Shown in pieces: positions 9,263 through 63,764 of a stretch of 64,000 nucleotides of DNA. The DNA is taken from positions 9,610,001-9,674,000 of the forward strand of contig NZ_CP016279.1 of assembly GCF_001542625.1 (NCBI RefSeq). Direction: 5' to 3'. How positions within the stretch are numbered: the first letter of the stretch is position 1; each line of letters starts with the position of its first letter. The notes beneath the pieces were generated by a model. It was not told the origin of the DNA, did no database searches, and saw only the letters and a list, made by a program, of their open reading frames with translations. The position numbers and the translations under genes are program-made. This stretch comes from Streptomyces griseochromogenes. GTDB taxonomy: Bacteria; Actinomycetota; Actinomycetes; Streptomycetales; Streptomycetaceae.

Positions 9263-9336
9263 GCGCCGCTAGCTCAGTTGGTTAGAGCAGCTGACTCTTA
9301 ATCAGCGGGTCCGGGGTTCGAGTCCCTGGCGGCGCA
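9263..9336 (+). tRNA. tRNA-Lys (CTT anticodon)
   Basis: 74 nt cloverleaf. The acceptor GCGCCGC pairs with GCGGCGC, the anticodon stem GCTGA/TCAGC encloses the loop CTCTTAA with anticodon CTT, and the T-arm is CGGGG-TTCGAGT-CCCTG. Discriminator A follows and CCA is not encoded. It is identical to the copy at 13300-13373. Confidence 0.98.
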
Positions 9337-9341
9337 CAGAT

Positions 9342-13299: not shown

Positions 13300-13373
13300 G
13301 CGCCGCTAGCTCAGTTGGTTAGAGCAGCTGACTCTTAATCAGCGGGTCCGGGGTTCGAGTCCCTGGCGGCGCA
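13300..13373 (+). tRNA. tRNA-Lys (CTT anticodon), second copy
   Basis: Identical over all 74 nt to the tRNA at 9263-9336, with the same arms and CTT anticodon. The flanking DNA differs, so the two are separate copies about 4.0 kb apart in direct orientation. Confidence 0.98.
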
Positions 13374-13380
13374 CAGACCG

Positions 13381-47120: not shown

Positions 47121-47123
47121 TTA
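47121..47123. repeat. IS target-site duplication, left
   Basis: TTA directly left of the inverted repeat, repeated at 47977-47979. A 3-bp TNA duplication is typical of IS5-type insertions. Confidence 0.8.
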
Positions 47124-47161
47124 GAGGTCATCTCATTTGGGGTGTTCGATAGGCTCCAGAT

Positions 47162-47518
47162 GTGGGGATCGTTGAGCGGCTTGTGCCGGATGAGCTGTGG
47201 GAGTTGTTCCAGCGAGTGGTTCCGGAGGCGCCGAGTCGGCCTCAGGGTGGTGGCCGGCGCCGGCACGGCGACCGGGAGGTGTTGGCTGCGATCGTGTTCG
47301 TGGCCACGTCGGGCTGCACGTGGCAGCAACTGCCGTCCGCCTCGTTCGGGCTTTCAGGGCCCACGGCTCACCGGCGCTTCGCCGAGTGGTCGAAGGCCCG
47401 GGTGTGGGCGAAGCTCCATCGCCTGGTCCTCGACGAACTCGGCTCTCGCGGTGAACTGGACTGGTCTCGCTGCGCGATCGACTCGGTGAACATGCGAGCC
47501 CTGAAAAAGGGGACCTGA
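47162..47518 (+). CDS. IS5-family transposase, N-terminal ORF
   Basis: 118 aa from GTG. DELWELFQRVVPEAPSRPQGG and REVLAAIVFVATSGCTWQQL are the DUF4096-type N-terminal DNA-binding part; the first DDE aspartate is in CAIDSVNM. It ends in LKKGT. The slip site A5G4 at 47504-47512 precedes the stop; reading -1 there continues into the second ORF without a stop. Confidence 0.9.
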   Translation: MGIVERLVPDELWELFQRVVPEAPSRPQGGGRRRHGDREVLAAIVFVATSGCTWQQLPSASFGLSGPTAHRRFAEWSKARVWAKLHRLVLDELGSRGELDWSRCAIDSVNMRALKKGT

Positions 47519-47532
47519 CAGGTCCGAATCCG

Positions 47533-47967
47533 GTGGATCGCGGCAAGTACGGTTCAAAGATCCACTTGATCACCGAGCGTACCGGGCTGCCCCTGTCCGT
47601 CGGGATATCCGGTGCCAACCTGCACGACAGCCAGGCCCTCGAACCGCTCGTGCGAGGCATCCCACCCATTCGCTCCCGGCGCGGACCGCGCCGACGACGG
47701 CCCGCCAAACTCCACGGCGACAAAGGCTACGACTACAACCACCTGCGCCGATGGTTACGCAGCCGCGGCATCCGACATCGCATCGCCCGCAAAGGCATCG
47801 AGCCCTCCACACGGCTGGGCCGCCACCGCTGGACGATCGAACGCACCATGGCCTGGCTCGCCGGATGCCGCCGCCTCCACCGCCGCTACGAACGCAAAGC
47901 CGAACACTTCCTGGCCTTCACCAGCATCGCCTGCACCCTCATCTGCTACCGCAGACTCACCAAATGA
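47533..47967 (+). CDS. IS5-family transposase, C-terminal ORF
   Basis: 144 aa counted from an in-frame GTG, but the frame is open from the slip site, giving KGDLTGPNPVDRGKYGSKIH across the junction, a standard IS5 motif. The second Asp is in SGANLHDSQ and the catalytic Glu in WTIERTMAWL. The DDE triad is complete in the fused product. Confidence 0.9.
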   Translation: MDRGKYGSKIHLITERTGLPLSVGISGANLHDSQALEPLVRGIPPIRSRRGPRRRRPAKLHGDKGYDYNHLRRWLRSRGIRHRIARKGIEPSTRLGRHRWTIERTMAWLAGCRRLHRRYERKAEHFLAFTSIACTLICYRRLTK

Positions 47968-48069
47968 GATGACTTCTTAGCCCACTACAGTGCCGTTCGC
48001 TCAGCAACGGTCTCAGGCATTGAGCAGCAGCCCAACCGTCGACCCGTGCCCATCACCCGCACGTGCGGC

Positions 48070-48082: not shown

Positions 48083-48544
48083 GTGTCCGAAGTTCCCGCG
48101 TGGGAAGCACCAGAAGGTTCCTGGGCTTCGTCCGCAGCACGCCGCCGCAACATGCAAGCGATCCGCAGCCGTGACACAAAGCCTGAACGGCTGATCCGAC
48201 GCCTTGTCCATGCCCAAGGGCTGCGCTACCGCGTGGCTGCCCGACCATTGCCCGATCTCCGCAGGACAGCCGACATAGTCTTCCGGCCGGCGAAGGTAGC
48301 CGTATTCATCGACGGCTGCTACTGGCACGGCTGCCCGGAACACTACGTCCCACCGAAGACCAACTCGGGATACTGGTCGGAAAAGGTCCTGCGGAACATG
48401 AATCGTGACCGCGACACCGATCAACGACTCAAGGAAGCGGGTTGGCTTGTGCTCCGTTTCTGGGAGCACGAGCCATCAGGCGCCTGCGCCGACAAAATCG
48501 CTTCGGTGGTCATTTCCCGCCGAGATAGTGCGCGGAAGATCTGA
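48083..48544 (+). CDS. vsr: Very short patch repair endonuclease (Vsr)
   Basis: 153 aa. Vsr nicks next to T in T:G mismatches left by deamination of 5-methylcytosine. RRRNMQAIRSRDTKPE, Asp64 in RTADIVF, and FIDGCYWHGCPEH with Asp, His and the zinc Cys are all there; the ending LRFWEHE is also standard. The last 69 nt overlap the convergent methyltransferase gene. The presence of vsr shows that the adjacent enzyme makes 5-methylcytosine. Confidence 0.95.
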   Translation: MSEVPAWEAPEGSWASSAARRRNMQAIRSRDTKPERLIRRLVHAQGLRYRVAARPLPDLRRTADIVFRPAKVAVFIDGCYWHGCPEHYVPPKTNSGYWSEKVLRNMNRDRDTDQRLKEAGWLVLRFWEHEPSGACADKIASVVISRRDSARKI

Positions 48545-49825
48545 AACAGAAAACAGCATCTGCTCGGACTCAGACTTGAAGGAGGGACCGTCACTGGAGT
48601 CTACGACATACCCTTCGAGCAACTCTTCTCGCTGCTCCGGTCGCAGCACTGCAGCGATAGCACGACCGACCGCCTCCGCGACAGGCGGAGGAAAGGCGTT
48701 TCCAACCTGACGGTACTTTGCGGTCTTCCGCCCCTGGAACTTCCATTCTCCCGGAAAGCCCTGGATAATGGCAGCTTGATCCACAGTCAGCATAGGCCCA
48801 GCCGGACGGAAGAGATCCCGCTCCGGGTCGCACTCATGAGGATCATTCGCGACCCCCATGGCGTCAACCCCCAAGTCAGCCCAGGCACGCTTGGCCCTGG
48901 TCGGCCCGAGGTCCGCACCGCCATGCTTCTTGGAGCCACCAACGAGCGTTGGAGCGATTCCCTTACCTGCTTCAAGGGCAGATTCCGCATCATCATGCCA
49001 TTTTTCGTAAACATCCTTTCCGGTCCGCTCATCCGGAGCCGCCGGCAGTCCCCTGAAATTTCTATCCCAGAACGCATCACAGCGCTCCTTCATGCTCTCT
49101 TCGAGCTTCTCCACAACCGACGCCTTGGCGCCCTTCAGGCGGACTGGCCACTGGAAGTCGACTCCGCTTTTCTTGACTACGTCATTGCGGATAGCTACGA
49201 GAATCGCCCGGGGACGGAGTTGCGGAACGCCAAAATCGCTAGCATCCATCCTTCGCCAAACACTTCGCATCGCCAGATCCTGCTTCTCAGGAAGCCAGTG
49301 ATCTTCGATATCCGGGACCGCGTAACCGAACTCACGCAGTCGACTCAGGATATAGCTGCGATACTCAATGAAAACCTCAGGCGGCTCAAGAATCCCTCGG
49401 ACATTCTCAATCATGACGGCCTTAGGCCTGAGTGCATCAACAATGTCTAGAGCGTCCGGGAATAGATCACGCTCGTCATCTTTCCCAAGCCTCTTCCCAG
49501 CCAAGGAGAACGGAGGGCACGGAACTCCTCCCGCAAGGAGATCGAGATCCCCCTCCTTAAGCCCGAGTTTCTTGCGCACGTCAGAATCAAGGAACTTCTT
49601 CACATCCATCGGCTCAAGAGCGTCCGCGCGCTCCTTGCTCCACCCGGGCCAGTCGGCCACGTTCGCGCTGAGGGTCCGCACCGCGTGCGCGTCCCACTCC
49701 ACGAGAGCAAGATGATCAAAGCCGGCGTTGTGGAGCCCAACGGCTTGCCCGCCGGCCCCTGCACAGATCTCAATCGAGGTCAGTGGCGGGGTGAACTGCG
49801 GGCGCTTCCGGCCGCTGGCGCGCAT
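48476..49825 (-). CDS. dcm: DNA (cytosine-5) methyltransferase
   Basis: 449 aa. Motif I EICAGAGGQAVGL (19-31), motif IV GGVPCPPFSLAGK with catalytic Cys103, motif VI ENVRG (140-144), motif VIII QLRPRAILVA, a variable target-recognition region, and motif X VGNAFPPPVAEAVG. Recognition sequence cannot be predicted. The C-terminal tail (about 420-449) is encoded in the overlap with vsr. AGGAGG precedes the ATG. It lies 104 bp behind the helicase gene on the same strand and is likely the protective or marking methylase of the cluster. Confidence 0.95.
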   Translation of the reverse strand: MRASGRKRPQFTPPLTSIEICAGAGGQAVGLHNAGFDHLALVEWDAHAVRTLSANVADWPGWSKERADALEPMDVKKFLDSDVRKKLGLKEGDLDLLAGGVPCPPFSLAGKRLGKDDERDLFPDALDIVDALRPKAVMIENVRGILEPPEVFIEYRSYILSRLREFGYAVPDIEDHWLPEKQDLAMRSVWRRMDASDFGVPQLRPRAILVAIRNDVVKKSGVDFQWPVRLKGAKASVVEKLEESMKERCDAFWDRNFRGLPAAPDERTGKDVYEKWHDDAESALEAGKGIAPTLVGGSKKHGGADLGPTRAKRAWADLGVDAMGVANDPHECDPERDLFRPAGPMLTVDQAAIIQGFPGEWKFQGRKTAKYRQVGNAFPPPVAEAVGRAIAAVLRPEQREELLEGYVVDSSDGPSFKSESEQMLFSVSDLPRTISAGNDHRSDFVGAGA

Positions 49826-49929
49826 GGGCGCTCCTCCTGGTGTGGCTCAAAACATGCGTCGGTTCCCGAGAGGCAGCGATCACGCCTGCCTCTCGGCACC
49901 AGGAGTCTCCCAAATTGAATCTCGGGATG

Positions 49930-51747
49930 CTAGCGGCTGCCCATATGCCTCAGCAAGGCCTCGATGTCGCCTGGCGCCAGCCCGGCCGCGACGGATGGTT
50001 CTTCTTGCAGGTCGGCGAGCTGCTGCACTGTCGGATCATCGAGGATCCGGCCCATGAACTCGAGCTTCTGCTCCAAACGCGCCGCTACGACCTCATCAAT
50101 CGTGTTCCGGACAGCCAGGACAGTCACCCTGGTGTCCGTTCCCGGAGCCAGCCCCAAACGGTGAATCCGGTCGAGACTCTGCAGGAAGCGGCCTGCCATG
50201 AAGTCACGGTCCACGTACACAGCGTCATGACACACATGGTGCAGGCTGATGCCTTCACCCAGGGTCGCCGGGTTGGAGATCAGCACCATGCAGCTCGGAT
50301 CCTCACGGAACCGCCTCAGCTGCTCGTCACGGTCAGGCGTACCGCCATAGACGACCGCGGGGCTGAACTTCTCCAGCATCTGCTCCAGTGTCGCCAGACT
50401 CCGGACAAAGGTCGTCCACACCAGCGTCTTGCGCCCCTGTGCCGCGTTCTCCGCGATGATCGTCACCGCTTCCTGGTACTTAGGCGACAGCTCGTAATCC
50501 GGAAGATTCTGCATGAGTGAGTACAGCGAGCTGCCTTCCGGAATCTCCAGGGGCGGCAGCTGATAAGCCAACGGCTCATACCGGCTCCCCCCCTCAAGGA
50601 GCAGTGCCGGACTTGTAGCCGCCATCAGCAGACGCAAGGCCGTCTTGCCGAGCGAGCTGAGATCATCTCTGGCGGCGCCGCTGTTCACGCCACCCACCAA
50701 AGAGCCGTAGATCTCGTTGTGCAGCGGCGGCATGTCGACGTACCGCACCCTCGTCCAAACTGGCGGAAGGCCCAGTTCCTGCTTCGTGGTTCGGGTGAAC
50801 AAAGGCCGCAGGACCGAACTGGCGTAAGCGAGATCCCCTCCTGCTACCGCTTGGACGACCGTGCGTTGCCCGTGCCCAGGCCAGACGAAGCCCATCAGGT
50901 TCTCCAGGTCCTTTGAGCCATTGGGCGCAGGGGTCCCGGTGAGGATCAGACGCCGCTCGGCGAGAGGACCAAGGGCCATGCACGCAGCGCCATAGGTGCC
51001 CCGAGCGCCCAGCTTCATCCTGTGCGCTTCATCAAGAATGATCATGGAGGGACCGGCCTTCAGCCAGCTGGCCAGCGTGGGCAAGGAGCGGTCCAGCCGT
51101 TCGTAGTTGACGATCAGCACCTCCGCCCACTGATCCATCGACCCATCGAGAACATGAGTCCGTAGGGGATAGCTGAAACACACTGCGGTCTCGTATCGCC
51201 ATGATTCATATGCCGACTTGGGGCACACCACCAGAACCCGGCTCACGCGTCTCTGCGCCTTCTGGGCGGCATAGACAGCCATAGCCACGCGTGTTTTCCC
51301 CGCTCCAGGCACACTGAAGTTGGCCCCGTGCTGGAGTGACAGCAATTTCGCGATGTCCCGGATCTGGAACTCGCTCAGCTCCGCCTCCCAGGTGTCCCCG
51401 AGGAGCCCGGGCACCTCGTCCCGCGCGACATCGCCCTGAGGCTGCGCGCCGGCCAAGCGCTCCTTGACCGTATTGGCGTCCTGGACGACTCCGGCCACAA
51501 GGTTCCGCAGTTCAGGAGCCCACTCCACGCCTTCGTGGTGCGGCCATCCGCTGAGAACGCTCAGATCCGCGAGGAGCTCATCAAGGGCAACCGAGGCGGC
51601 CAGCTGGCCCAACTGGCCGCCCGTGCGGAAACGGGCGGCCAGCTGGACGAGGTCCTGCTGGTACTGATCAGTCGTCCTCAGGACAACTCGGGTACGCGTC
51701 TCGTCGAATCCCAGGTGAAGAGACGTCTCAGCCGGGGTACCGGTCAC
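49930..51747 (-). CDS. SNF2-type DEAD/DEAH helicase-translocase
   Basis: 605 aa SF2 enzyme. EFQIRDIAKLL (Q-motif-like), Walker A VPGAGKT (Lys151), DEAH 239-242, LTGTPAPN (270-277) and the C-terminal ISNPATLGEGISLH and QSLDRIHRLG arginine-finger motif are complete. SNF2-like translocases move on double-stranded DNA. The N-terminal 120 residues are unlike standard helicases. GTG overlaps the ParB-like stop by 4 bp. In this gene order it resembles the motor subunit of a restriction or defence system. Confidence 0.9.
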   Translation of the reverse strand: MTGTPAETSLHLGFDETRTRVVLRTTDQYQQDLVQLAARFRTGGQLGQLAASVALDELLADLSVLSGWPHHEGVEWAPELRNLVAGVVQDANTVKERLAGAQPQGDVARDEVPGLLGDTWEAELSEFQIRDIAKLLSLQHGANFSVPGAGKTRVAMAVYAAQKAQRRVSRVLVVCPKSAYESWRYETAVCFSYPLRTHVLDGSMDQWAEVLIVNYERLDRSLPTLASWLKAGPSMIILDEAHRMKLGARGTYGAACMALGPLAERRLILTGTPAPNGSKDLENLMGFVWPGHGQRTVVQAVAGGDLAYASSVLRPLFTRTTKQELGLPPVWTRVRYVDMPPLHNEIYGSLVGGVNSGAARDDLSSLGKTALRLLMAATSPALLLEGGSRYEPLAYQLPPLEIPEGSSLYSLMQNLPDYELSPKYQEAVTIIAENAAQGRKTLVWTTFVRSLATLEQMLEKFSPAVVYGGTPDRDEQLRRFREDPSCMVLISNPATLGEGISLHHVCHDAVYVDRDFMAGRFLQSLDRIHRLGLAPGTDTRVTVLAVRNTIDEVVAARLEQKLEFMGRILDDPTVQQLADLQEEPSVAAGLAPGDIEALLRHMGSR

Positions 51748-53180
51748 CGAGCACCTTCCGCGGCCGCGGCCTCAAGCAGCCAGGCCACTCCGTCACCGGG
51801 GTTGGGCAGGCCCCGGCCGGCCTGCTGGGCCAGCTTGCGAAGGCTGCCGCGCAGCTTCAGCACCGCCTCGTCGAAGGCCTCCTCGTCCAGGCTCCGGGAA
51901 GTACGGGCCTGGACGAGGTCCATCACGCACTGATCGATGCTCGCGCAAGCCTCGGCAAGACGCGCGGGGGCGAGCTGCTTACGCTTGCGCAGGCGTGCGC
52001 TGCGGCCGGCGGCTTCGATTGCCTCGTCGAAAGCGCTCTTGGCGTCATCTAGCAGCGCCTGATCCTGGGCCTTATCGCCGTCAGACAACTCGTGGGTTCC
52101 GCTACGAACGGCAGCGCTGGCCCGCAGGATCCGGTCGTTCAGGGCCCGTGCCTCGGACACGGCGGAAGAGGCTGCGGGCACCGCGAGGCCAAGGCCCGGG
52201 ATCGAGACCGCTTCCTGTCCCACCGCCCCGGAGTCGCCGGCGGAAAGCGTCTCCGGCAGCGTCCGCCCGAGGTGCCCCTCCTTCAGGAACTCTTCGTCGA
52301 TGTGGCGCACGTCCGTCTTCGAGAAGTCCAGGAGGATTGCCGCGAGCCGCCACTCCTTCAGGACCTCGGCCTGGTCACGGTCGACCGACTCCAGCTTCAC
52401 ATACAGACGGTGGAGCTCCTTGAGACGCTCCTGGGCCCCTTCCCAGTCCACCAACCTCAGGGCCACTCCGCCGCCGGTCTTACTGCGGTCGATGAGCTCC
52501 TGAATCGTGCTCAGAATCCAGCGCTCCTGGTGGTACGTCTTGACCTGGATCCGGAATTCCTTAGCGATCTGCTCAGGCGTACGCCCGAGCGAGGCCTGCT
52601 CCTCCATGGCCAGAAGCCTGTTGATGTACGAGTAGTCGCGGCGGTGGTCCTTGCGCAACTGGAGTGACAGCTCAACGGCGTTGATATCCGCCCAGGTGAA
52701 CGACTCAGGCAGCACGCCGACACGCATCGACTGGGCACCCAGTTCACGCAGTGCGGCGGCACGCGTGTTGCCGTTCACGAGGATGCCGTGATGGGTCACG
52801 AGCCCGGGATCGTTCTGTCCGAACTGATCGAGGCTTTCCTTGAGCTTGTCGAAGTCGGTGTCGCGAATGTTCGGATCGGTCGGCGAAGCCTGGAGCAGGA
52901 ACCGCAGATAGTCCTGGCTTTCAGCGTTCCACGGATCCCTTTCCAGCAACTCATCACGGGTCGGATCGTGGCTGCGCTGCGCCCGGATCCGGTGGGTGCT
53001 GGGGTTGAAGTACAGCCCGCTGAGCGGCAAGTCGATGACCTCCACATGAGCCTGCTGTTCATTCCAGTCGACGGTGACCGTCTCCCTTGTACCGCCGGCC
53101 GCCCTGACCTCCTCGACCTTCTTCTTGATCAGTTCACTGAACTCAGCCGCACGAGGCGGCTGCGGGAGCTCCCGCAGCAT
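51744..53180 (-). CDS. ParB/Srx-fold protein
   Basis: 478 aa. An N-terminal ParB/sulfiredoxin-type domain (about 40-190) has the box VNGNTRAAALRELG at 135-148 in place of the ParB CTP-binding/catalytic motif. An HTH-like segment RTPEQIAKEFRIQVKTYHQE (about 210-230) and a helical, charged C-terminal half follow. The fold occurs in chromosome segregation, nucleases and several phage-defence systems (for example DndB-like and DpdB proteins). No ParA is nearby, so plasmid partition is unlikely. Coupled to the helicase gene. Confidence 0.8.
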   Translation of the reverse strand: MLRELPQPPRAAEFSELIKKKVEEVRAAGGTRETVTVDWNEQQAHVEVIDLPLSGLYFNPSTHRIRAQRSHDPTRDELLERDPWNAESQDYLRFLLQASPTDPNIRDTDFDKLKESLDQFGQNDPGLVTHHGILVNGNTRAAALRELGAQSMRVGVLPESFTWADINAVELSLQLRKDHRRDYSYINRLLAMEEQASLGRTPEQIAKEFRIQVKTYHQERWILSTIQELIDRSKTGGGVALRLVDWEGAQERLKELHRLYVKLESVDRDQAEVLKEWRLAAILLDFSKTDVRHIDEEFLKEGHLGRTLPETLSAGDSGAVGQEAVSIPGLGLAVPAASSAVSEARALNDRILRASAAVRSGTHELSDGDKAQDQALLDDAKSAFDEAIEAAGRSARLRKRKQLAPARLAEACASIDQCVMDLVQARTSRSLDEEAFDEAVLKLRGSLRKLAQQAGRGLPNPGDGVAWLLEAAAAEGAR

Positions 53181-53200
53181 CGCTTTTCCCCGTCCTCTCC

Positions 53201-53899
53201 CTAGTCGTCCTGGTCATCCATGTCGTTCAGCGCGTCGGTGACGGCCTTACGGGACTCCTCCGGCAGAGTCCGGAAGATGCCCCACATCTTCTCCATCGGG
53301 CTCAGGGGCCGCTGATCGGCCGTGATCCACGCCAGGAAGATCTGCCGCTCCATGGGAGACAGGGCCTCCGCGAGGTCCAGGATCACCCCGAGGTCGACCT
53401 CGCGGTCTCCGCCCCCGACCCCGCAGCGCTTGCACTCCGTCACCAGCTGGTGCTCGGTCTCGCCGCTGGGCAGCAGCACCTTCCGGCGGGCCACGTTCAG
53501 CACCGCCAGCGTGACGCCGTCCTCGTACGCCTCACCGCCCGCGATTCCACAGGACCGGCAGAGGTGGTTGTCGGCCTGGAAGATCTTCATACGCTGCGCC
53601 GTGGTGAGGCTGGTCTTGTGCTTCGGCGCCTTCGACTTGCCCGGAACCCAGACATCAGCTCCACGAGCGACGAAGCGCTGCTCCTGCTGCTGCAGCGAAA
53701 CGTCATCACGGCTGGTGTCGATCCGCCAGTCGTGATCCCTCAGGTCCCGGGTGCGCCTGTCGATCTGAGCCACGTCCGGGAAGGCTTCACGCAACTGCGC
53801 CTTCGTGAAGACGTTCCCCTCCCCCACCTCCTGCAGAAGCCACAGCGCAGCCCGCGCCATGCTCCCCAGCTTCTTGTCCTGCCACGACGGCAGCGTCAT
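53201..53899 (-). CDS. Zinc-binding HNH-like protein of the defence cluster
   Basis: 232 aa. N-terminal winged-helix-like part (MARAALWLLQEVGEGNVFT, RRTRDLRDHDWRIDT), then a treble-clef region with Cys114-x2-Cys117 and Cys156-x2-Cys159 spaced like HNH nucleases. The usual central Asp-His is not seen; the matching stretch reads LAVLNVARRK, so activity is uncertain. C-terminal helices (170-232) are acidic, ending MDDQDD. GGAGG precedes the ATG. It is the first gene of the four-gene unit, 20 bp before the ParB-like gene. Confidence 0.7.
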   Translation of the reverse strand: MTLPSWQDKKLGSMARAALWLLQEVGEGNVFTKAQLREAFPDVAQIDRRTRDLRDHDWRIDTSRDDVSLQQQEQRFVARGADVWVPGKSKAPKHKTSLTTAQRMKIFQADNHLCRSCGIAGGEAYEDGVTLAVLNVARRKVLLPSGETEHQLVTECKRCGVGGGDREVDLGVILDLAEALSPMERQIFLAWITADQRPLSPMEKMWGIFRTLPEESRKAVTDALNDMDDQDD

Positions 53900-54157: not shown

Positions 54158-55231
54158 ATGACACGGGGCAGGGACACGACGCGCACATGCGGCTGGATAG
54201 ACAAGGAGCTCCGCAGTGACGTTCCTCCGGGCAAGCGCGCCTTGGCTCTGGCCCTACAGGGGCTCTGCCATCACATCGCTCCTGCCGTTTCGGGCAACAA
54301 GTCGACAGAGTCAGGACCAACGCAGGCAGAAGTGGCTGACCACTTGAAATGCAGCGAGACTTCCCTGTCCAGGTTTCTGAGCGGGCAGTCCGTGCCACGG
54401 TCCGTTGACTTCATCTACAAGAAGGCCTGCGCTGATGCTGGCGGCGGGGACGTGCTCGGCATCAGCTTCGACGAGCTCGAAAAGCTCCGCGAGCAGGCGT
54501 GGGCCGAGCGATGTCACAGCTGTGTCGCCCTACGAGCTGAGCGCGATGCTCTAGTCGAACAAGTCGCAGACGCACAGGCCGAGCTCACCGGCCTGCGGAA
54601 GGCAGCAGCTCGCGACGCGGCGGAGCTAGCAGCCCTTCGACAGGACGCGCAGTCATTCGTCGCAGTGCAAGCTGAGCGCGATGCACTGATCGAGCAAGTC
54701 AAGGACGCACAGGCCGAGCTCACCGGCCTGCGGAAAACAGCAGCTCGCGACGCGGCGGAGCTAGCAGCCCTTCGGCAGCAGGTGCGGTCATTCAATGAGG
54801 CCCTCTTGGAACTTAGGGAGTCGGTCACGGAGTTGAGGGCAACCCGAGCCGGCTTGCAAGCACGTCTCGCCGCTCAGGCATCGCTCACTCTGCTGCCGGT
54901 CCCCCGCCGGAGGGGGGACCGGCAGCAGAGCGGAATCGATGCGTCGGCAGCGCGGCGGGTCGCCCAGCAGGCTGCAGAGCTGCACGACGACGGCCGGCAA
55001 GGGGCCGCACTGAGCTTGCTGCGCCACACCACGGACGTTCTCAGCCCTCTCGAAACAGCCACGCTGCTCCAGGCGCTCCGGCGACAGCAGCAGAACAAGC
55101 TCGCCGACAACGTGATCCATATCTACGGTCGCGATCACCACGACCAGGACGTACTCCAGGTGACGTTGGAACTCCACAAGCTGGGCGCTCCAGATGACGC
55201 CGGCGCGCTACTCCGAGCAGCGCTGGGGTGA
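54158..55231 (+). CDS. HTH and coiled-coil regulatory protein with internal repeats
   Basis: 357 aa. A helix-turn-helix (about 45-95: TQAEVADHLKCSETSLSRFL) leads into a coiled coil (about 125-245). This holds two 45-residue tandem copies beginning AERDALVEQVADAQAELTGL and AERDALIEQVKDAQAELTGL. The C-terminal part (about 265-357) is helical, with HDDGRQGAALSLLRHTTDVL typical of Streptomyces regulators of this design. GGAGG precedes the ATG. A perfect inverted repeat is buried at 54888-54930. No specific function known. Confidence 0.75.
   Translation: MTRGRDTTRTCGWIDKELRSDVPPGKRALALALQGLCHHIAPAVSGNKSTESGPTQAEVADHLKCSETSLSRFLSGQSVPRSVDFIYKKACADAGGGDVLGISFDELEKLREQAWAERCHSCVALRAERDALVEQVADAQAELTGLRKAAARDAAELAALRQDAQSFVAVQAERDALIEQVKDAQAELTGLRKTAARDAAELAALRQQVRSFNEALLELRESVTELRATRAGLQARLAAQASLTLLPVPRRRGDRQQSGIDASAARRVAQQAAELHDDGRQGAALSLLRHTTDVLSPLETATLLQALRRQQQNKLADNVIHIYGRDHHDQDVLQVTLELHKLGAPDDAGALLRAALG
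54535..54804 (+). repeat. Two tandem 135-bp coding repeats
   Basis: Near-identical 135-bp units begin at 54535 and 54670 (both with AGCTGAGCGCGATGC) and keep the reading frame, duplicating 45 residues of coiled coil. Confidence 0.85.
54888..54930. repeat. Perfect 18-bp inverted repeat inside a CDS
   Basis: CTCTGCTGCCGGTCCCCC (54888-54905) and its exact complement (54913-54930) flank a 7-nt loop. It codes in frame for the linker between the coiled coil and C-terminal part of the HTH protein. Confidence 0.9.
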
Positions 55232-58077: not shown

Positions 58078-58665
58078 TCAACCGCCTTGAACTGCCAAGG
58101 GAGCACTCCCCTGCTTCTCGGCATCGGAGAACAGCAGGGTGGGCTCGGCGAGGATGTCGCGGCCGGCCTCGCTCTTGTAGATCTCATCGACGCTGCCGAA
58201 CCGGGCTTCGGAGTAGTCGAGTTCCAGAAGAGCGGCGGCCTGCCGTACCGACGCCTCGTCGGGCCCCTCGATCTCCAGGAACGTGGGGAGGTCGGGCCAG
58301 GTGTCGAAGTCGAAGGCGACCTCTCCCAGGCGCCACTCCTCGCGGTAGTTCTCCTGGTAGCGGACCTCGGTGAGGCCCACCCGGCTCAGGATTTCGGCCA
58401 TGGCGTGCAGGTCGGCGACCTCGGTCTCGATCTCCTTGGTGCCGTCGATCGTCGTGGCGTCGGTGACCTGCTTGAGCGTGAGCGTCGAGCGGGTGCCCTC
58501 GTCCCTCAGCCGGAGCCACGCCCCTCCGTCGAGGGAATCGTTCTCGAAGATCTTACGGGTGAGGAGGGTGCGGGGGAGCGCCTTGACGGCACCGAGGGCG
58601 GCCAGCTTGGCCTGCAGGCCAACGACGTCGACGGCCAGGAACTTCGCCTCGTACTCGTGCTTCAT
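58078..58665 (-). CDS. CYTH-domain protein (class IV adenylate cyclase / triphosphatase type)
   Basis: 195 aa. The signature ExExK is visible in MKHEYEAKFLAVD, with paired acidic and basic tunnel strands: AWLRLRDEGTRSTLTLKQV, KEIETEVADL, RYQENYREEW, FDFDTWPDLPTFLEIEGPDE. CYTH enzymes bind nucleotide or inorganic triphosphates and act as adenylyl cyclases or triphosphatases; which one is not decidable here. GAAGGA precedes the ATG. Last gene of the radical-SAM operon, 11 bp behind the methyltransferase. Confidence 0.9.
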   Translation of the reverse strand: MKHEYEAKFLAVDVVGLQAKLAALGAVKALPRTLLTRKIFENDSLDGGAWLRLRDEGTRSTLTLKQVTDATTIDGTKEIETEVADLHAMAEILSRVGLTEVRYQENYREEWRLGEVAFDFDTWPDLPTFLEIEGPDEASVRQAAALLELDYSEARFGSVDEIYKSEAGRDILAEPTLLFSDAEKQGSAPLAVQGG

Positions 58666-58676
58666 GTGTCCTTCTC

Positions 58677-59339
58677 TCAGAAACGGTCGGTGAGGGTGGA
58701 CGTACGGGCTGCCAGGAGCAGGCCCATGCGATGGGTGTGGTCGTGCAGCTGGTCGACGTGGGGCCGTTCGGTGAACTCGTCCGTGCGCAGGGTGAGCAGG
58801 ACATCCCAGTCACTGAGGAAGTGACGGTGCAGGCGCTCGGGAGAGGTGTAGTGCTCCACCAAGTGGTGGCGCGTTTCGACGGGCATCATGAACTCCGCAC
58901 CGAACACGCCGCCCGGGTGGACCAGGCGTTGCATGCGGTCGACGAACTCGGCGAGCGGGCGGTGGTGGTTGGCACTGTAGTGCCACGAGCAGCTCGTCCA
59001 GACCGCCTCACATTGCATGTCCAGGGGATCCCCTGCCAGGAAGTCCTCTTCAACGACCTGCACACGAGCGTCGAGTTCCTCTTGCTTCAGCCGGTCGATC
59101 AAGCCCATCGCGTGCGCTTCGCTGTCACCCGGGAGGCGGACCTCACCTCCGTGCACGGCAAGCGCATCGCGCTCGATCGCTACTACGCGGTACCCAGCGG
59201 CTGCCAGAGGCAGGACGAACTTGCCGTCGCTCGCACCGACGACTGCGATGGTGGCGTTAGAGGCAACGCGCTCCCGCAGAGTGACGAGGAACTGAGGGAA
59301 GAAGGTGAGGGTGTGCTCCCACAGGCTCCGTGTCTGCAT
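58677..59339 (-). CDS. SAM-dependent methyltransferase-like protein
   Basis: 220 aa. Rossmann motif I as IAVVGASDGKFVLPLAAAG, an acidic end of strand 2 in VVAIERDA, VQVVEEDFLAGDP (motif III-like) and VWTSCSWHYSANHHRPLAEF with a histidine-rich active-site region. Thus probably uses SAM, but the acceptor is unknown. The start lies 83 bp inside the kinase gene; this long overlap means either coupling or a later true start. Confidence 0.75.
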   Translation of the reverse strand: MQTRSLWEHTLTFFPQFLVTLRERVASNATIAVVGASDGKFVLPLAAAGYRVVAIERDALAVHGGEVRLPGDSEAHAMGLIDRLKQEELDARVQVVEEDFLAGDPLDMQCEAVWTSCSWHYSANHHRPLAEFVDRMQRLVHPGGVFGAEFMMPVETRHHLVEHYTSPERLHRHFLSDWDVLLTLRTDEFTERPHVDQLHDHTHRMGLLLAARTSTLTDRF

Positions 59340-59898
59340 GGGAGTGCGCTCCTTGCGTATCGGTGGCGGTGATCACGCGGAGGACCTCTTCGGGGGTGAG
59401 CCCCGTGGTGTCGATGCGATGCATCGGGAACGAGGCGTAGGCATCCGTCACTCGGTCCGTGACGGTTTCCATCAGCGCGTCCCATCGCCATGTCGGCTTG
59501 TTCCGTGCTGCGAGGCGGCGTCGGCGTTCGTCGTCAGCGCAGACGAGGTGGTAGGTGACGGGCGTTGGCAGCCAGGCCGGCAGAGTGACGCCGAGCCGGG
59601 CGCCCAGGGCACGGTGGCTGGAGAGACACCGGGCGAAGTAGCTCTCCACGACGACCGGGACGCCACCTCTGAGTTGGTGCTGGATCTCTTCGGCTGCTGT
59701 GAACAGTGCGGAGAGGTAGAGACACATCCGCGCTTCGACGTTCGTCCGCTTGTCCACCTCGCGCCTGAGGGGCTGGTACAAGGCAGGCACGGTGGGGACT
59801 AGAACGGCTTGTCGGGCAGCGGCGAGCAACGGTGCGATGGTCGACTTCCCGGTGCCGCGTAAGCCTTCCAGGCTCTCGAACCTCGGGTGGTCAGGCAT
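59257..59898 (-). CDS. P-loop nucleoside/nucleotide kinase (dTMP-kinase-like)
   Basis: 213 aa. Walker A in FESLEGLRGTGKSTIAPLL, followed by a helical lid and VVVESYFARCLSSHRALGAR (DR-motif-like) and LVCADDERRRRLAARN. Resembles thymidylate kinases, which phosphorylate nucleoside monophosphates. ATG at 59898 overlaps the radical SAM stop by 8 bp. The C-terminal 40 residues extend over the methyltransferase start and may be a non-conserved tail. Confidence 0.78.
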   Translation of the reverse strand: MPDHPRFESLEGLRGTGKSTIAPLLAAARQAVLVPTVPALYQPLRREVDKRTNVEARMCLYLSALFTAAEEIQHQLRGGVPVVVESYFARCLSSHRALGARLGVTLPAWLPTPVTYHLVCADDERRRRLAARNKPTWRWDALMETVTDRVTDAYASFPMHRIDTTGLTPEEVLRVITATDTQGAHSHADTEPVGAHPHLLPSVPRHSAGARCL

Positions 59899-60793
59899 GC
59901 GCGTACACCACGTCCGGTACCGGGAGCGTGATCTCGTCCGTGGCGGAGGGCCTGTGGACGATACGGTTCGCGGACTTCTCGTACCAGAACGCGTGGGAGT
60001 CCTTGCCCACCGCCTTGCAGGACATGGTGAGCGCACCGCGTGGGTCGGCCTCGATCCGGTCGATCTCGCGAGGTCCGCCGGACGGTGCGCAGACCTCAGG
60101 AGCGCTGTGCTCGGAGAGGTCCTCGTCGACGATCACTTCAAGCGGCAACTCGGTTTCCGCGAGCTCTTCGCGGAGCCGGCCGTAGGCGGCCGTGTCGGTT
60201 ACCAGCAGCTCGGGATGGTTTGCGGCGTTGCCGACGGGCCGCAGATGGTGGAGCTTCAGCTGCCGGACTCCGAGGTGGGCCAAGACACGGGCGAGGGGGA
60301 GTACCTCGCCGATGTTCCGTGAGGTCACGGTCATGGTCACGCCGGTTGAAACACCGAGGTCCCGTGCCAGGCCGAGCGAGTGGAGAGCGCTCTGGTAGCT
60401 GCCGCGCTTGCGGATGCCGTCGTTGGTCGAGCCGACACCCTCCAGGGAGACCCGGAGCAAGTCCAGGTGCGGAGCAATCTCGGTCAGGCAGCGCTCGATC
60501 CGGTACCCGTTGGTGCAGATCTCGACACGCTGGCCCAGCTCCTGCTTGGCGTGCCGGACGACCTGTGGGAGCTCCCGATGGACGAACGGCTCCCCACCGA
60601 GCAGGGTGACGGCCTCCGTGCCGTATTCATCCCGCATCAGGTCGAGAAGGCTGACGGCTTCCTCAGCGGTGAAGGCATCGGCATACTGAAGGCGCTTGCC
60701 GTGGAAGCAGTGCAGACACGTGAAGTTGCAGCGGTACAGCAACTGCAGGTACAGCATTCGGATCTTCTTGATCCCCGTGACTTCCCCGATCAC
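59891..60793 (-). CDS. Radical SAM protein
   Basis: 300 aa. Cluster motif CNFTCLHC (Cys22, 26, 29) is followed by LLGGEPFVHRELPQVV (GGE SAM site), EICTNGYRIERCL, DLLRVSLEGVGSTND and GVTMTVTSRN. Two later Cys (EVCAPSGG, TMSCKAVG) may help bind another cofactor, but a full SPASM domain is not visible. Radical SAM enzymes start reactions by a 5'-deoxyadenosyl radical. Product unknown. GTG with AAGGAG 7 nt before; the long upstream frame lacks coding character. Confidence 0.9.
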   Translation of the reverse strand: MIGEVTGIKKIRMLYLQLLYRCNFTCLHCFHGKRLQYADAFTAEEAVSLLDLMRDEYGTEAVTLLGGEPFVHRELPQVVRHAKQELGQRVEICTNGYRIERCLTEIAPHLDLLRVSLEGVGSTNDGIRKRGSYQSALHSLGLARDLGVSTGVTMTVTSRNIGEVLPLARVLAHLGVRQLKLHHLRPVGNAANHPELLVTDTAAYGRLREELAETELPLEVIVDEDLSEHSAPEVCAPSGGPREIDRIEADPRGALTMSCKAVGKDSHAFWYEKSANRIVHRPSATDEITLPVPDVVYAHA

Positions 60794-60857
60794 ATGGGCT
60801 CCTTCGGCTGACTTCCTGGTGGGAACCCTGATGGTGGCCGTCCGTCCGGGGACCTCG

Positions 60858-61592
60858 TCACCGCATTCGGGGACGATCCAAGGACGTCCTGGGACGTTTT
60901 GCGTGACCCGCGAAGGACTCCAGGACGCTGAGAACCTCTTTGGTGTCCAATAGGTCGGGCAGGATTTCGTGAGCGCCGGCAGCGGCCAGCTCCTCGGGAC
61001 TGTGGACGCCGGAGGCGACCGCGACGATCCCCGAATCCGTGGACAGGGCGGCCTCCACGTCACGGGGAGTGTCCCCCACCAGTACGGCGGGCACATCGGC
61101 CGGAACGCCACGGAGCCGCTGTATGCGTTGGCGGGCGACCGCGACAAGTTCGGGACGGAGCTCGGCGTCCGCTCCGTAGGAGCCCACCGACAGGTCCAAC
61201 AGGGAGTCGAGGCCGAAAGCGGACAGCTTCACATGGGCGTTGGCGGCGATGTTGCCGGTCAGGACAGAGGAAACCCAACCGCTTCGCAGTGAGGCGGCCT
61301 TCAGTACCTCGTGGACCCCCGGCAAGGCTGTCCCGCGCGAGCGCAGATCACCCAGGCGGTCATGCCCGGCCTGTGCGAGGGCGTCCTCGATCACGGGCCA
61401 CTCTGGCACGGGCAGCTCGTCACGAAGGAACATCTCGCGCATGATCAGCCGATCCGTGCGCCCCTCGGTGCGAGCCGGCCCCGTCGGCACACACCCCGCG
61501 AGTGATGAGAAGGCAGCCGCGTAAATCTCCTTGCTCACCCCCGAGTTCTCAATGAGGGTATGGTCGATGTCCCACAGGATGATGAGCTCCAT
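60858..61592 (-). CDS. HAD family phosphatase
   Basis: 244 aa. Nucleophile motif ILWDIDHTLIENSG (Asp8, Asp10), a helical cap, motif II VLTGNIAAN, and motif III VLVGDTPRDVEAAL. Subfamily I HAD phosphatases act on small phosphorylated metabolites. First gene of the operon that continues with the radical SAM gene after 64 bp, and divergent from the HTH regulator. Confidence 0.9.
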   Translation of the reverse strand: MELIILWDIDHTLIENSGVSKEIYAAAFSSLAGCVPTGPARTEGRTDRLIMREMFLRDELPVPEWPVIEDALAQAGHDRLGDLRSRGTALPGVHEVLKAASLRSGWVSSVLTGNIAANAHVKLSAFGLDSLLDLSVGSYGADAELRPELVAVARQRIQRLRGVPADVPAVLVGDTPRDVEAALSTDSGIVAVASGVHSPEELAAAGAHEILPDLLDTKEVLSVLESFAGHAKRPRTSLDRPRMR

Positions 61593-61642
61593 GGCGCCAG
61601 CGTAGGCAGTTGGCGCTGCTCTGCCTTCGTCACAACGTCCCG

Positions 61643-61648
61643 TAACGT
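61643..61648 (+). promoter_or_regulatory. Minus-10 of leaderless HTH gene
   Basis: TAACGT ends 6 nt before the GTG at 61655. It is preceded by an overlapping AACGTCC direct repeat (61634 and 61644). Confidence 0.55.
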
Positions 61649-61654
61649 CCTTGC

Positions 61655-62461
61655 GTGATCAGACAGCGCACCGCTTCCATGGCTGCTGTGAACGACCGAC
61701 TGCACTCTGTGCTCGCGCAGCGCGGTGTCTCGCCCGAATCGCTCGCGGAAGTGTGCGAGGTGGATCCCAAGACGGTGAGCCGGTGGCTGGGCGGGCGGAT
61801 TCCGCATGCTCGGCATCGCTTCCGTGTCGCGCGCCACCTGCGCGTGGAAGAGACCTTCCTATGGCCAGCATCGCCTCGACGATCCGGCCGGTCGCGTGAC
61901 GGGTTAGGCACCGAGCTGGTCGGCACCTATCAGAACCGAGCCAGCGTGCCGCGGGACGTCTGGCTCTCGCTGCTGCGAGAGGCTCAGCACGAGATCAGCG
62001 TCCTCGTCTTCTCCGGCACCTTCTTCGCGCAGTCCAACCCGCATGTTGCCAAGATGCTCTCCGAGCGTGCTGCCGAGGGCATCCGGGTACGCCTGTGCTT
62101 CGGTGACCCAGACGGTCAGGCAGTCGCAATCCGAGGCCGTGAAGAGGGTATCGGCGACACCCTGGCCGCCAAGATCCGGGCCTCGCTGACGTACTACCAC
62201 CCCTTGCTGGGTGAGGCCGGATGCGCCGTACGGCTCCACGACACCACGCTCTACACGTCCATGTTCCGCTACGACGACAACCTTCTGATCAATCCGCACA
62301 TCTGGGGACAACCTGCCAGCGCCAACCCTCTGCTCCACCTCAAGAGGGCTGGCGGTATCGGGTGGTTCGACAACTACGCTGAGAGCTTCGACTCCGTCTG
62401 GGCCGCTGCGCGGCCATGGACGCCCGATCAGGAGAGGACCGCCCCCTATGGGCAGGACTGA
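61655..62461 (+). CDS. HTH regulator with PLD-like C-terminal domain (DUF5919-like)
   Basis: 268 aa. XRE HTH (LHSVLAQRGVSPESLAEVCE, PKTVSRWLGGRIPHARHRFR) followed by a domain with phospholipase-D-like topology: EISVLVFSGTFFAQSN, GIRVRLCFGDPDG and YDDNLLINPHIWGQP. The HKD catalytic motif is not seen, so it likely senses a ligand. Leaderless GTG start. The gene overlaps the NUDIX gene by 14 bp and diverges from the radical SAM operon, which it may regulate. Confidence 0.8.
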   Translation: MIRQRTASMAAVNDRLHSVLAQRGVSPESLAEVCEVDPKTVSRWLGGRIPHARHRFRVARHLRVEETFLWPASPRRSGRSRDGLGTELVGTYQNRASVPRDVWLSLLREAQHEISVLVFSGTFFAQSNPHVAKMLSERAAEGIRVRLCFGDPDGQAVAIRGREEGIGDTLAAKIRASLTYYHPLLGEAGCAVRLHDTTLYTSMFRYDDNLLINPHIWGQPASANPLLHLKRAGGIGWFDNYAESFDSVWAAARPWTPDQERTAPYGQD

Positions 62462-62915
62462 GTACTACAACGACCCGGCTGCCCCGAAGGCGAACACCCT
62501 CATCCCGGCCAGCAACCTGCTCGTCGTCGACGAGACCGGAGCCATCCTCCTCCAGCGCCGCCGCGACACCGGCCAGTGGGCGCTTCCCGGCGGCGCCCAG
62601 GACATCGGCGAGACCGCGGCCGAGTGCGCGGTACGCGAGTGCCTGGAGGAGACCGGCATCATGGCCGAGATCACCGGATTCCTCGGCGTCTACACCAACC
62701 CGAACCACATCGTCGCCTACACCGATGGCGAGATCCGCCAGCAGTACGAGAACACCTACATCGGCCGCCCCATCGGCGGAGCCCCCACGATCAACGACGA
62801 GGCCGACGGCGTCCGCTTCGTCCAGCCGACCGACCTCGACCAGTACGACATCCACCCGAGCATGCGCCAGCAGATCGGGGACTACCTGGCCGGCACCTAC
62901 CCTTACCTCGGCTGA
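62448..62915 (+). CDS. NUDIX hydrolase
   Basis: 155 aa. The NUDIX box GGAQDIGETAAECAVRECLE then ETGI matches GX5EX7REUXEEXGU fully. NUDIX enzymes cleave nucleoside diphosphates linked to another moiety. Start inside the HTH gene end gives coupling. Converges on the HD gene with a 13-bp overlap. Confidence 0.95.
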   Translation: MGRTEYYNDPAAPKANTLIPASNLLVVDETGAILLQRRRDTGQWALPGGAQDIGETAAECAVRECLEETGIMAEITGFLGVYTNPNHIVAYTDGEIRQQYENTYIGRPIGGAPTINDEADGVRFVQPTDLDQYDIHPSMRQQIGDYLAGTYPYLG

Positions 62916-63466
62916 GCCGCCAGCGCCGTCTCGATCCTCTCTACGGAGGAGAAGATTTCCGGCGCCGCGCGGCGGATGAATCGGCCGACCACGCTGTCCA
63001 CGCTATAGCGGCCGACGATCTCCGCGATCCGCTCCTGCATACTGGTCCGGCCGCCGTCAGGCGTCGTCGTCATGTCGCAGTACACGAGGGCATCCACCAG
63101 CAGAGGCTCCTCCAGCAAGGGGAACTCCGACGCCAACTCGTCCCGCAGACCACGCTCCTCGGCCTCCAACAGGGCAAAGGAGTGGTTCGCGACCAGCCGC
63201 ACGAGCCGCTCGTCGGCCCCGTGCTCGTCACGAAGAAACCTTGCCCCGTCCAGCGGGTGGAACCCCGTCACGGCCAGCCGAGGCGCGTACCCGACGTCAT
63301 GCAGCGTGGCAGCGGCGATGAGCAGGCCAGCGCCTTCGCCAAAGAGCCCGCTGACTTCGATTGCACGCTCGGCCACGCCTTGCGTATGCGCCCACCTTCG
63401 TGGAAGCGCAGCGCTGAGCTCGGTTTCCGCTACCTGCGTCGCCCACTCAGCAATCAGATCGGCCAT
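62903..63466 (-). CDS. HD-domain phosphohydrolase
   Basis: 187 aa. His in RRWAHTQGVAERA and the metal HD pair in AATLHDVGYAP, with VANHSFALLE and VDALVYCDMTT. HD enzymes hydrolyse nucleotides or cyclic nucleotides. ATG with AGGAAG upstream is preferred. Converges with the NUDIX gene. Confidence 0.9.
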   Translation of the reverse strand: MADLIAEWATQVAETELSAALPRRWAHTQGVAERAIEVSGLFGEGAGLLIAAATLHDVGYAPRLAVTGFHPLDGARFLRDEHGADERLVRLVANHSFALLEAEERGLRDELASEFPLLEEPLLVDALVYCDMTTTPDGGRTSMQERIAEIVGRYSVDSVVGRFIRRAAPEIFSSVERIETALAAQPR

Positions 63467-63764
63467 GCCGGACTTCCTGCCCCCCAAAGTGCCCCGAGCC
63501 CACGCTGGGCTTCCCGCCGCTCAGACGTACACCGGCTACGACCAAGCATCGTCGTCGCTGCCGAAGCCGAGTCCTCCCTGACATTGTTGATCTGGCCGCT
63601 GTCGTCGACTCCGCTGCCGAGAGGCTAGTTCAGGCGCTGACGTCTCGCTCGGGTTCTACCTTGAACGACCCTCGGCCTATCACTCGCGGTGGTGACGTGT
63701 TCTCCGAGTAGATCGAAGTCTGAACTTACCCTTTCTATCTGGTAGTTACCGAAGGAGATCGACC

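Follow-up and report, generated by a model that had tools for sequence, protein, structure and literature searches.

The window analyzed here is a 64,000-nucleotide stretch of Streptomyces griseochromogenes DNA, located at 9.61-9.67 Mb within a single-contig genome of 10.76 Mb. Its proteins have their closest relatives in Streptomyces. It carries four genes on the reverse strand, which encode an HNH-like protein, a ParB-fold protein, an SNF2-family translocase of superfamily 2 (SF2) and a DNA cytosine-5 methyltransferase (Dcm), and a vsr gene on the forward strand that converges on dcm (Table 1). A reading of this DNA made from its letters alone (the sequence-only reading) had proposed this set in close or overlapping order, and we found all five genes in that arrangement with open frames. 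The HNH-like and ParB genes are separated by 20 bp, the ParB and SNF2 genes overlap by 4 bp, a gap of 104 bp separates SNF2 from dcm, and dcm and vsr overlap by 69 bp. Because the first three genes (the HNH-ParB-SNF2 triad) are nearly contiguous, their spacing suggests a single transcript. Comparison with three relatives gave ratios of nonsynonymous to synonymous substitution rates (dN/dS) of 0.05-0.26, and the five genes, whose frames show no decay, are therefore under purifying selection.

Table 1. Genes and features at the locus, in window coordinates.
Feature	Position	Strand	Evidence and remarks
HNH-like protein, 232 aa	53201-53899	-	winged-helix-like domain ~8-88, zinc HNH-like fold 97-168; leads the gene run
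ParB-fold protein, 478 aa	51744-53180	-	ParB-CTPase domain 45-177, helix-turn-helix (HTH) region ~185-235, long C-terminal helix 367-427
SNF2-family SF2 translocase, 605 aa	49930-51747	-	Pfam SNF2-rel_dom 5.6e-16, Helicase_C 1.7e-6; motifs; SNF2-family chains in PDB
Dcm, 449 aa	48476-49825	-	Pfam DNA_methylase 9.5e-54; target-recognition motif GGSKKHGGADLG at residue 296
Vsr endonuclease, 153 aa, GTG start	48083-48544	+	TIGR00632 5.8e-40; Pfam Vsr 3e-20
Divergent HTH and coiled-coil protein	54158-55231	+	weak HTH_31 and coiled-coil matches
IS5-like insertion sequence (IS) beside vsr	47123-47977	+	two transposase frames (PF13340, PF01609); inverted repeats 17/18

How regularly do these genes occur together? 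An alignment search with the ParB-fold protein across species genomes returned 223 relatives, the best 80 of which were retained as named loci (the nearest loci). All five genes were found at 80/80 of these; contig or stretch ends truncate three of the dcm or vsr genes and one HNH-like gene, and the dcm frame of one locus (L199) is short. The hosts include Streptomyces, Actinacidiphila, Kitasatospora, Streptacidiphilus, Amycolatopsis, Saccharopolyspora, Lentzea, Labedaea, Microbispora, Sinosporangium and others. One locus with the complete set (L200), whose ParB is a 54% relative, came from a metagenome-assembled genome titled Clostridia bacterium; its contig is probably a misbinned actinobacterial one. 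The HNH-like alignment, searched in 293 genomes of the order, matched in 52. After exclusion of four weak partial matches and of loci whose genomes had been covered before, 39 further loci were read, and the five genes were complete at 35 of them. In the genus sample, ParB matches occurred in 47/295 genomes and were strong (E <1e-100) in 42. Forty of the 47 ParB loci outside the window's own genome were read first and three more later; 38 of the 40 were close relatives, 37 with all five genes and one, at a contig end (L047), without Vsr. The phylum sample matched in 6/396 genomes, with three strong matches in the same genus and three weak ones. The 80 named loci overlap with the genus- and order-sample genomes, so the samples are not independent. 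Other neighbors that were counted are present at no more than 45/80 loci, a looser association than that of the five genes. Homologues standing mostly alone, the outcome that the sequence-only reading had named as counting against it, were not what we observed. In these comparisons the HNH-like, ParB-fold, SNF2, dcm and vsr genes form a conserved unit.

The gene adjacent to vsr encodes NaeI in many relatives (representative match, 3e-123) and NgoMIV in some (1e-110). Among the 68 closest Vsr genes from 295 Streptomyces genomes (E <=1.5e-72, taken from the 100 top-ranked rows of a longer Vsr list), 28 had only ParB within 15 kb, 19 only NaeI, 15 both and 6 neither; this typing used 46 of 48 ParB loci, two short partial matches being omitted, and, with one row per genome, 44 of 47 for NaeI. 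The triad can share a locus with NaeI or NgoMIV. On a tree of 127 Dcms, presence of the triad changes at least 6 times and presence of a restriction endonuclease ~12 times (means of 50 shuffles, 19 and 37), and a topology test that used a quick tree rejected the grouping of all 20 triad-free NaeI/NgoMIV Dcms into a single clade (approximately unbiased test, p-AU 4e-6). These results argue that partners have been exchanged more than once. In a distant branch, ParB-SNF2 is preceded by a gene for a type II restriction endonuclease homologue (PADLOC, ~2e-19), and in 8/80 nearest relatives a NOV_C protein gene directly follows SNF2. L109 and L213-L216 hold relatives of both NaeI and NgoMIV, two distinct enzyme families for one site, at a single Dcm-Vsr locus. 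Neither NaeI nor NgoMIV was found in the window with one reference each and profiles. The NaeI model (PF09126) matched 0/1 in the window's own genome and in no control genome, though it matched 44/295 genus genomes. The co-occurrence of the five genes and the exchange with NaeI give good support to a conserved restriction- or defense-like module with an SF2 motor.

The Dcm proteins link the two kinds of loci. The target-recognition motif GG[ST][KR]KHGGADLG was found at 130/135 loci with a Dcm match and is common to triad and NaeI/NgoMIV loci; the count leaves out the distant-branch Dcms (L049, L050 and L122). The other five are L146, where a contig end truncates dcm, and L115, L116, L121 and L124, which are without triad, NaeI or NgoMIV. 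Window Dcm carries this same motif. Recognition of GCCGGC is stated for NgoMIV in PMC4081073 and for NaeI in PMC9802373; the former prints the NaeI site as a different string. Because the motif is shared between triad and NaeI/NgoMIV loci, we predict that the window Dcm targets GCCGGC.

Two of the triad proteins are poorly covered by existing profiles. The HNH-like protein had no match in Pfam or in PADLOC 2.0, and the ParB-fold protein had a single match in each, at 13.5 bits (far under the cut-off) and 17 bits, respectively. The sequence-only reading had called the first a zinc-finger HNH-like protein. Its four Cys residues are invariant in the alignment, but the features of a canonical HNH nuclease are absent from the window protein: 80/80 aligned sequences have Arg138 where the catalytic His would be, and CKRCG stands in place of CxxCN, with loss of the Asn. 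As judged from these residues, the protein is not a canonical nuclease and has lost the HNH catalytic residues. HNH-like paralogues (33-37%) adjoin dcm at L031, L068, L189, L196, L198 and L202, between two dcm genes in five of the six. Three paralogues were aligned; those of L031 and L068, beside dcm, retain the HNH residues (GH and CARCN), and that of L051 does not. The ParB/Srx-type fold named earlier was recovered, and the ParB-fold protein is predicted by modeling to have a true ParB-CTPase fold. The SNF2 protein contains the motifs GKTR, DEAH, TGTP and RIHR, and Dcm contains the motifs PCPPFS, ENV, QLRPR and GNAFPP. No nuclease domain was detected in the SNF2 translocase. Vsr aligns with the Vsr chain 1cw0 at 4e-19; its D64 and H82 align with D51 and H69 of Escherichia coli Vsr and its D77 with E. 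coli H64.

We then compared the set with known systems. Its ParB-fold protein resembles the ParB/Noc/KorB clamps in CTPase fold, HTH region and long C-terminal helix; it differs in its restriction-type locus and in having NGNTR, by eye, near the place of the GERR motif. No ParA family match was obtained among the 10 window proteins scanned with Pfam. SspE and GmrSD combine an HNH-type domain and a ParB-like NTPase; here the two are separate proteins, the HNH catalytic residues are lost, and neither DUF262 nor DUF1524 matched in Pfam. The earlier exclusion of DISARM and Dpd was borne out. For DISARM (DrmA, DrmB and DrmC), the matches listed for 8 window proteins were only helicase and methylase cross-matches: DrmD at 51.8 bits in PADLOC and 41.5 bits in NCBIfam (cut-off, 610), DrmMII at 107 bits and DrmA at 12 bits. 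For Dpd, neither the DpdA transglycosylase nor the full set was found, only a DpdE-like helicase match at 32 bits (cut-off, 500). Dcm matches DruM2 of Druantia (4.8e-105), with neither DruE nor DruH among the matches listed for the same 8 proteins. The set is also close to the NaeI/NgoMIV type II restriction-modification (R-M) systems, a kinship that the sequence-only reading did not bring up, with similar Vsr genes and the same Dcm motif; the window differs in having the triad where NaeI or NgoMIV would stand. Like the MORC/paraMORC R-M operons and Mza, the set brings Dcm and Vsr together with an SF2 helicase and an ATPase; PMC2292703 already describes R-M operons that contain Dcm, Vsr, SF2 helicases, GHKL ATPases and HNH genes, including SNF2 and HNH genes within one operon type. 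An SNF2 helicase with a DUF3883 (NOV_C) endonuclease domain is likewise known (PMC3710099); the NOV_C of our relatives is a separate protein, and the window has none.

What could the triad be doing at a locus of this kind? We think it rather probable that the five genes form a GCCGGC-specific, methylation-protected restriction module in which the three triad proteins perform, or supplement, the function of a type II restriction enzyme. Locus exchange with NaeI and NgoMIV, together with the common Dcm motif, makes it most likely that the triad replaces or supplements the restriction enzyme in a methylation system for GCCGGC. In such a module, Dcm would methylate host GCCGGC, and Vsr would mend deaminated 5-methylcytosine at these sites and might double as a cutting partner. 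The HNH-like protein, with its winged helix and dead HNH fold, would most likely read the site or its missing methylation; the ParB-fold protein would most likely act as a nucleotide-gated clamp on that DNA, along which SNF2 would translocate. The marked DNA would then be blocked, or passed to a nuclease, which would be Vsr where the five genes stand by themselves, and NaeI, NgoMIV or a DUF3883/NOV_C protein where present. We infer a defense or restriction function, as the sequence-only reading had. The methylation dependence that it proposed is unlikely in the type IV sense from the gene content, because a matching methyltransferase is present at 80/80 nearest loci and host methylation should protect.

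Several observations weigh against this restriction module. Among the five window proteins, Vsr alone has a clear nuclease fold, and NaeI loci carry a like Vsr, for which an ordinary repair role suffices. No searched effector was found at 56/80 nearest loci, but this form accounts for just 13/40 genus-sample loci; a nuclease is thus at hand in many genomes, and the triad may be an accessory. Among the 39 loci read with the HNH-like bait, L244 is without dcm in its 18 kb, and the HNH-like genes of L258-L260 stand alone. Avoidance of GCCGGC is not clear, the site occurring at 0.84 of expectation in the window versus 0.62-1.08 for other GC palindromes. A Caulobacter study speaks in favor of the module: loss of YGCCGGCR methylation there leads to a DNA damage response for which a Vsr-like protein is required (PMC12907096), a sign, by analogy, that such an enzyme can harm a cell lacking methylation at sites of this kind. 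Its authors, however, propose accidental breaks during repair rather than restriction. One alternative is maintenance and not defense, with an orphan Dcm, very-short-patch repair by Vsr, and a triad that aids repair or chromosome organization at methylated GCCGGC. We regard this as unlikely.

The triad could instead be an independent defense system, blind to GCCGGC, that merely shares islands with Dcm-Vsr. Loci differ in how dcm and vsr are ordered and on which strands they lie, and distances between loci correlate at 0.94 for ParB and SNF2 and at only 0.34 for ParB and Vsr, from which Vsr may have been exchanged between loci. Moreover, ParB-SNF2-NOV_C occurs on a Streptomyces albidoflavus plasmid, where the 17 kb compared contain no HNH-like, Dcm or Vsr relative; a "restriction endonuclease" and an "HNH endonuclease family protein" are annotated nearby. 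Set against these points are the co-occurrence described above, tighter than that of any other neighbor counted, and the uniformity of the Dcm motif in the counted triad loci, bar the one cut by a contig end, and we judge independence to be a somewhat slimmer prospect than maintenance. A third possibility, that the window holds a leftover from which a restriction enzyme was lost, perhaps upon IS insertion beside vsr, appears very improbable: the identical form occurs at 56/80 nearest relatives, every frame is open with the low dN/dS given above, and the ~1.3 kb between the upstream gene and vsr is mostly IS.

Our searches of open-license literature returned no description of the HNH-ParB-SNF2/Dcm/Vsr set. 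In many soil actinobacteria, a DNA motor, a ParB-type clamp and a dead nuclease appear to occupy the usual place of the cutting enzyme. Since this three-gene motor-and-clamp module is tied to one predicted site, its mechanism is testable with methylated versus unmethylated GCCGGC DNA. If the restriction module is real, it would bring ParB clamps into restriction, give Vsr a possible second role, perhaps account for actinobacterial Dcm-Vsr pairs without an adjacent restriction enzyme, and be relevant to DNA transfer into Streptomyces.

Turning to the surroundings, the IS reported next to the block is indeed there, between vsr and its neighbor gene, and is a flank outside the system. The lower GC content noted earlier is real (0.60-0.66 across the block versus 0.65-0.78 in the first 47 kb of the window) but not unique, as low values persist as far as the end of the window and the region at 13-19 kb is fairly GC-poor as well (0.65-0.69). 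The divergent HTH/coiled-coil protein is perhaps a regulator; it is not an obligate part, because a relative was found at just 45/80 loci. Further on, 58078-63487 holds CYTH, methyltransferase-like, kinase-like AAA, radical SAM, HAD, DUF5919, NUDIX and HD genes, a putative linked nucleotide-related module. At L058 and L059, relatives of four of these genes separate SNF2 from dcm, and the S. albidoflavus plasmid has radical SAM, dTMP kinase and NUDIX genes in the neighborhood of ParB-SNF2. Finally, an identical pair of tRNA-Lys(ctt) genes at 9263-9337 and 13300-13374, 4037 bp apart, forms part of a 78 bp exact repeat.
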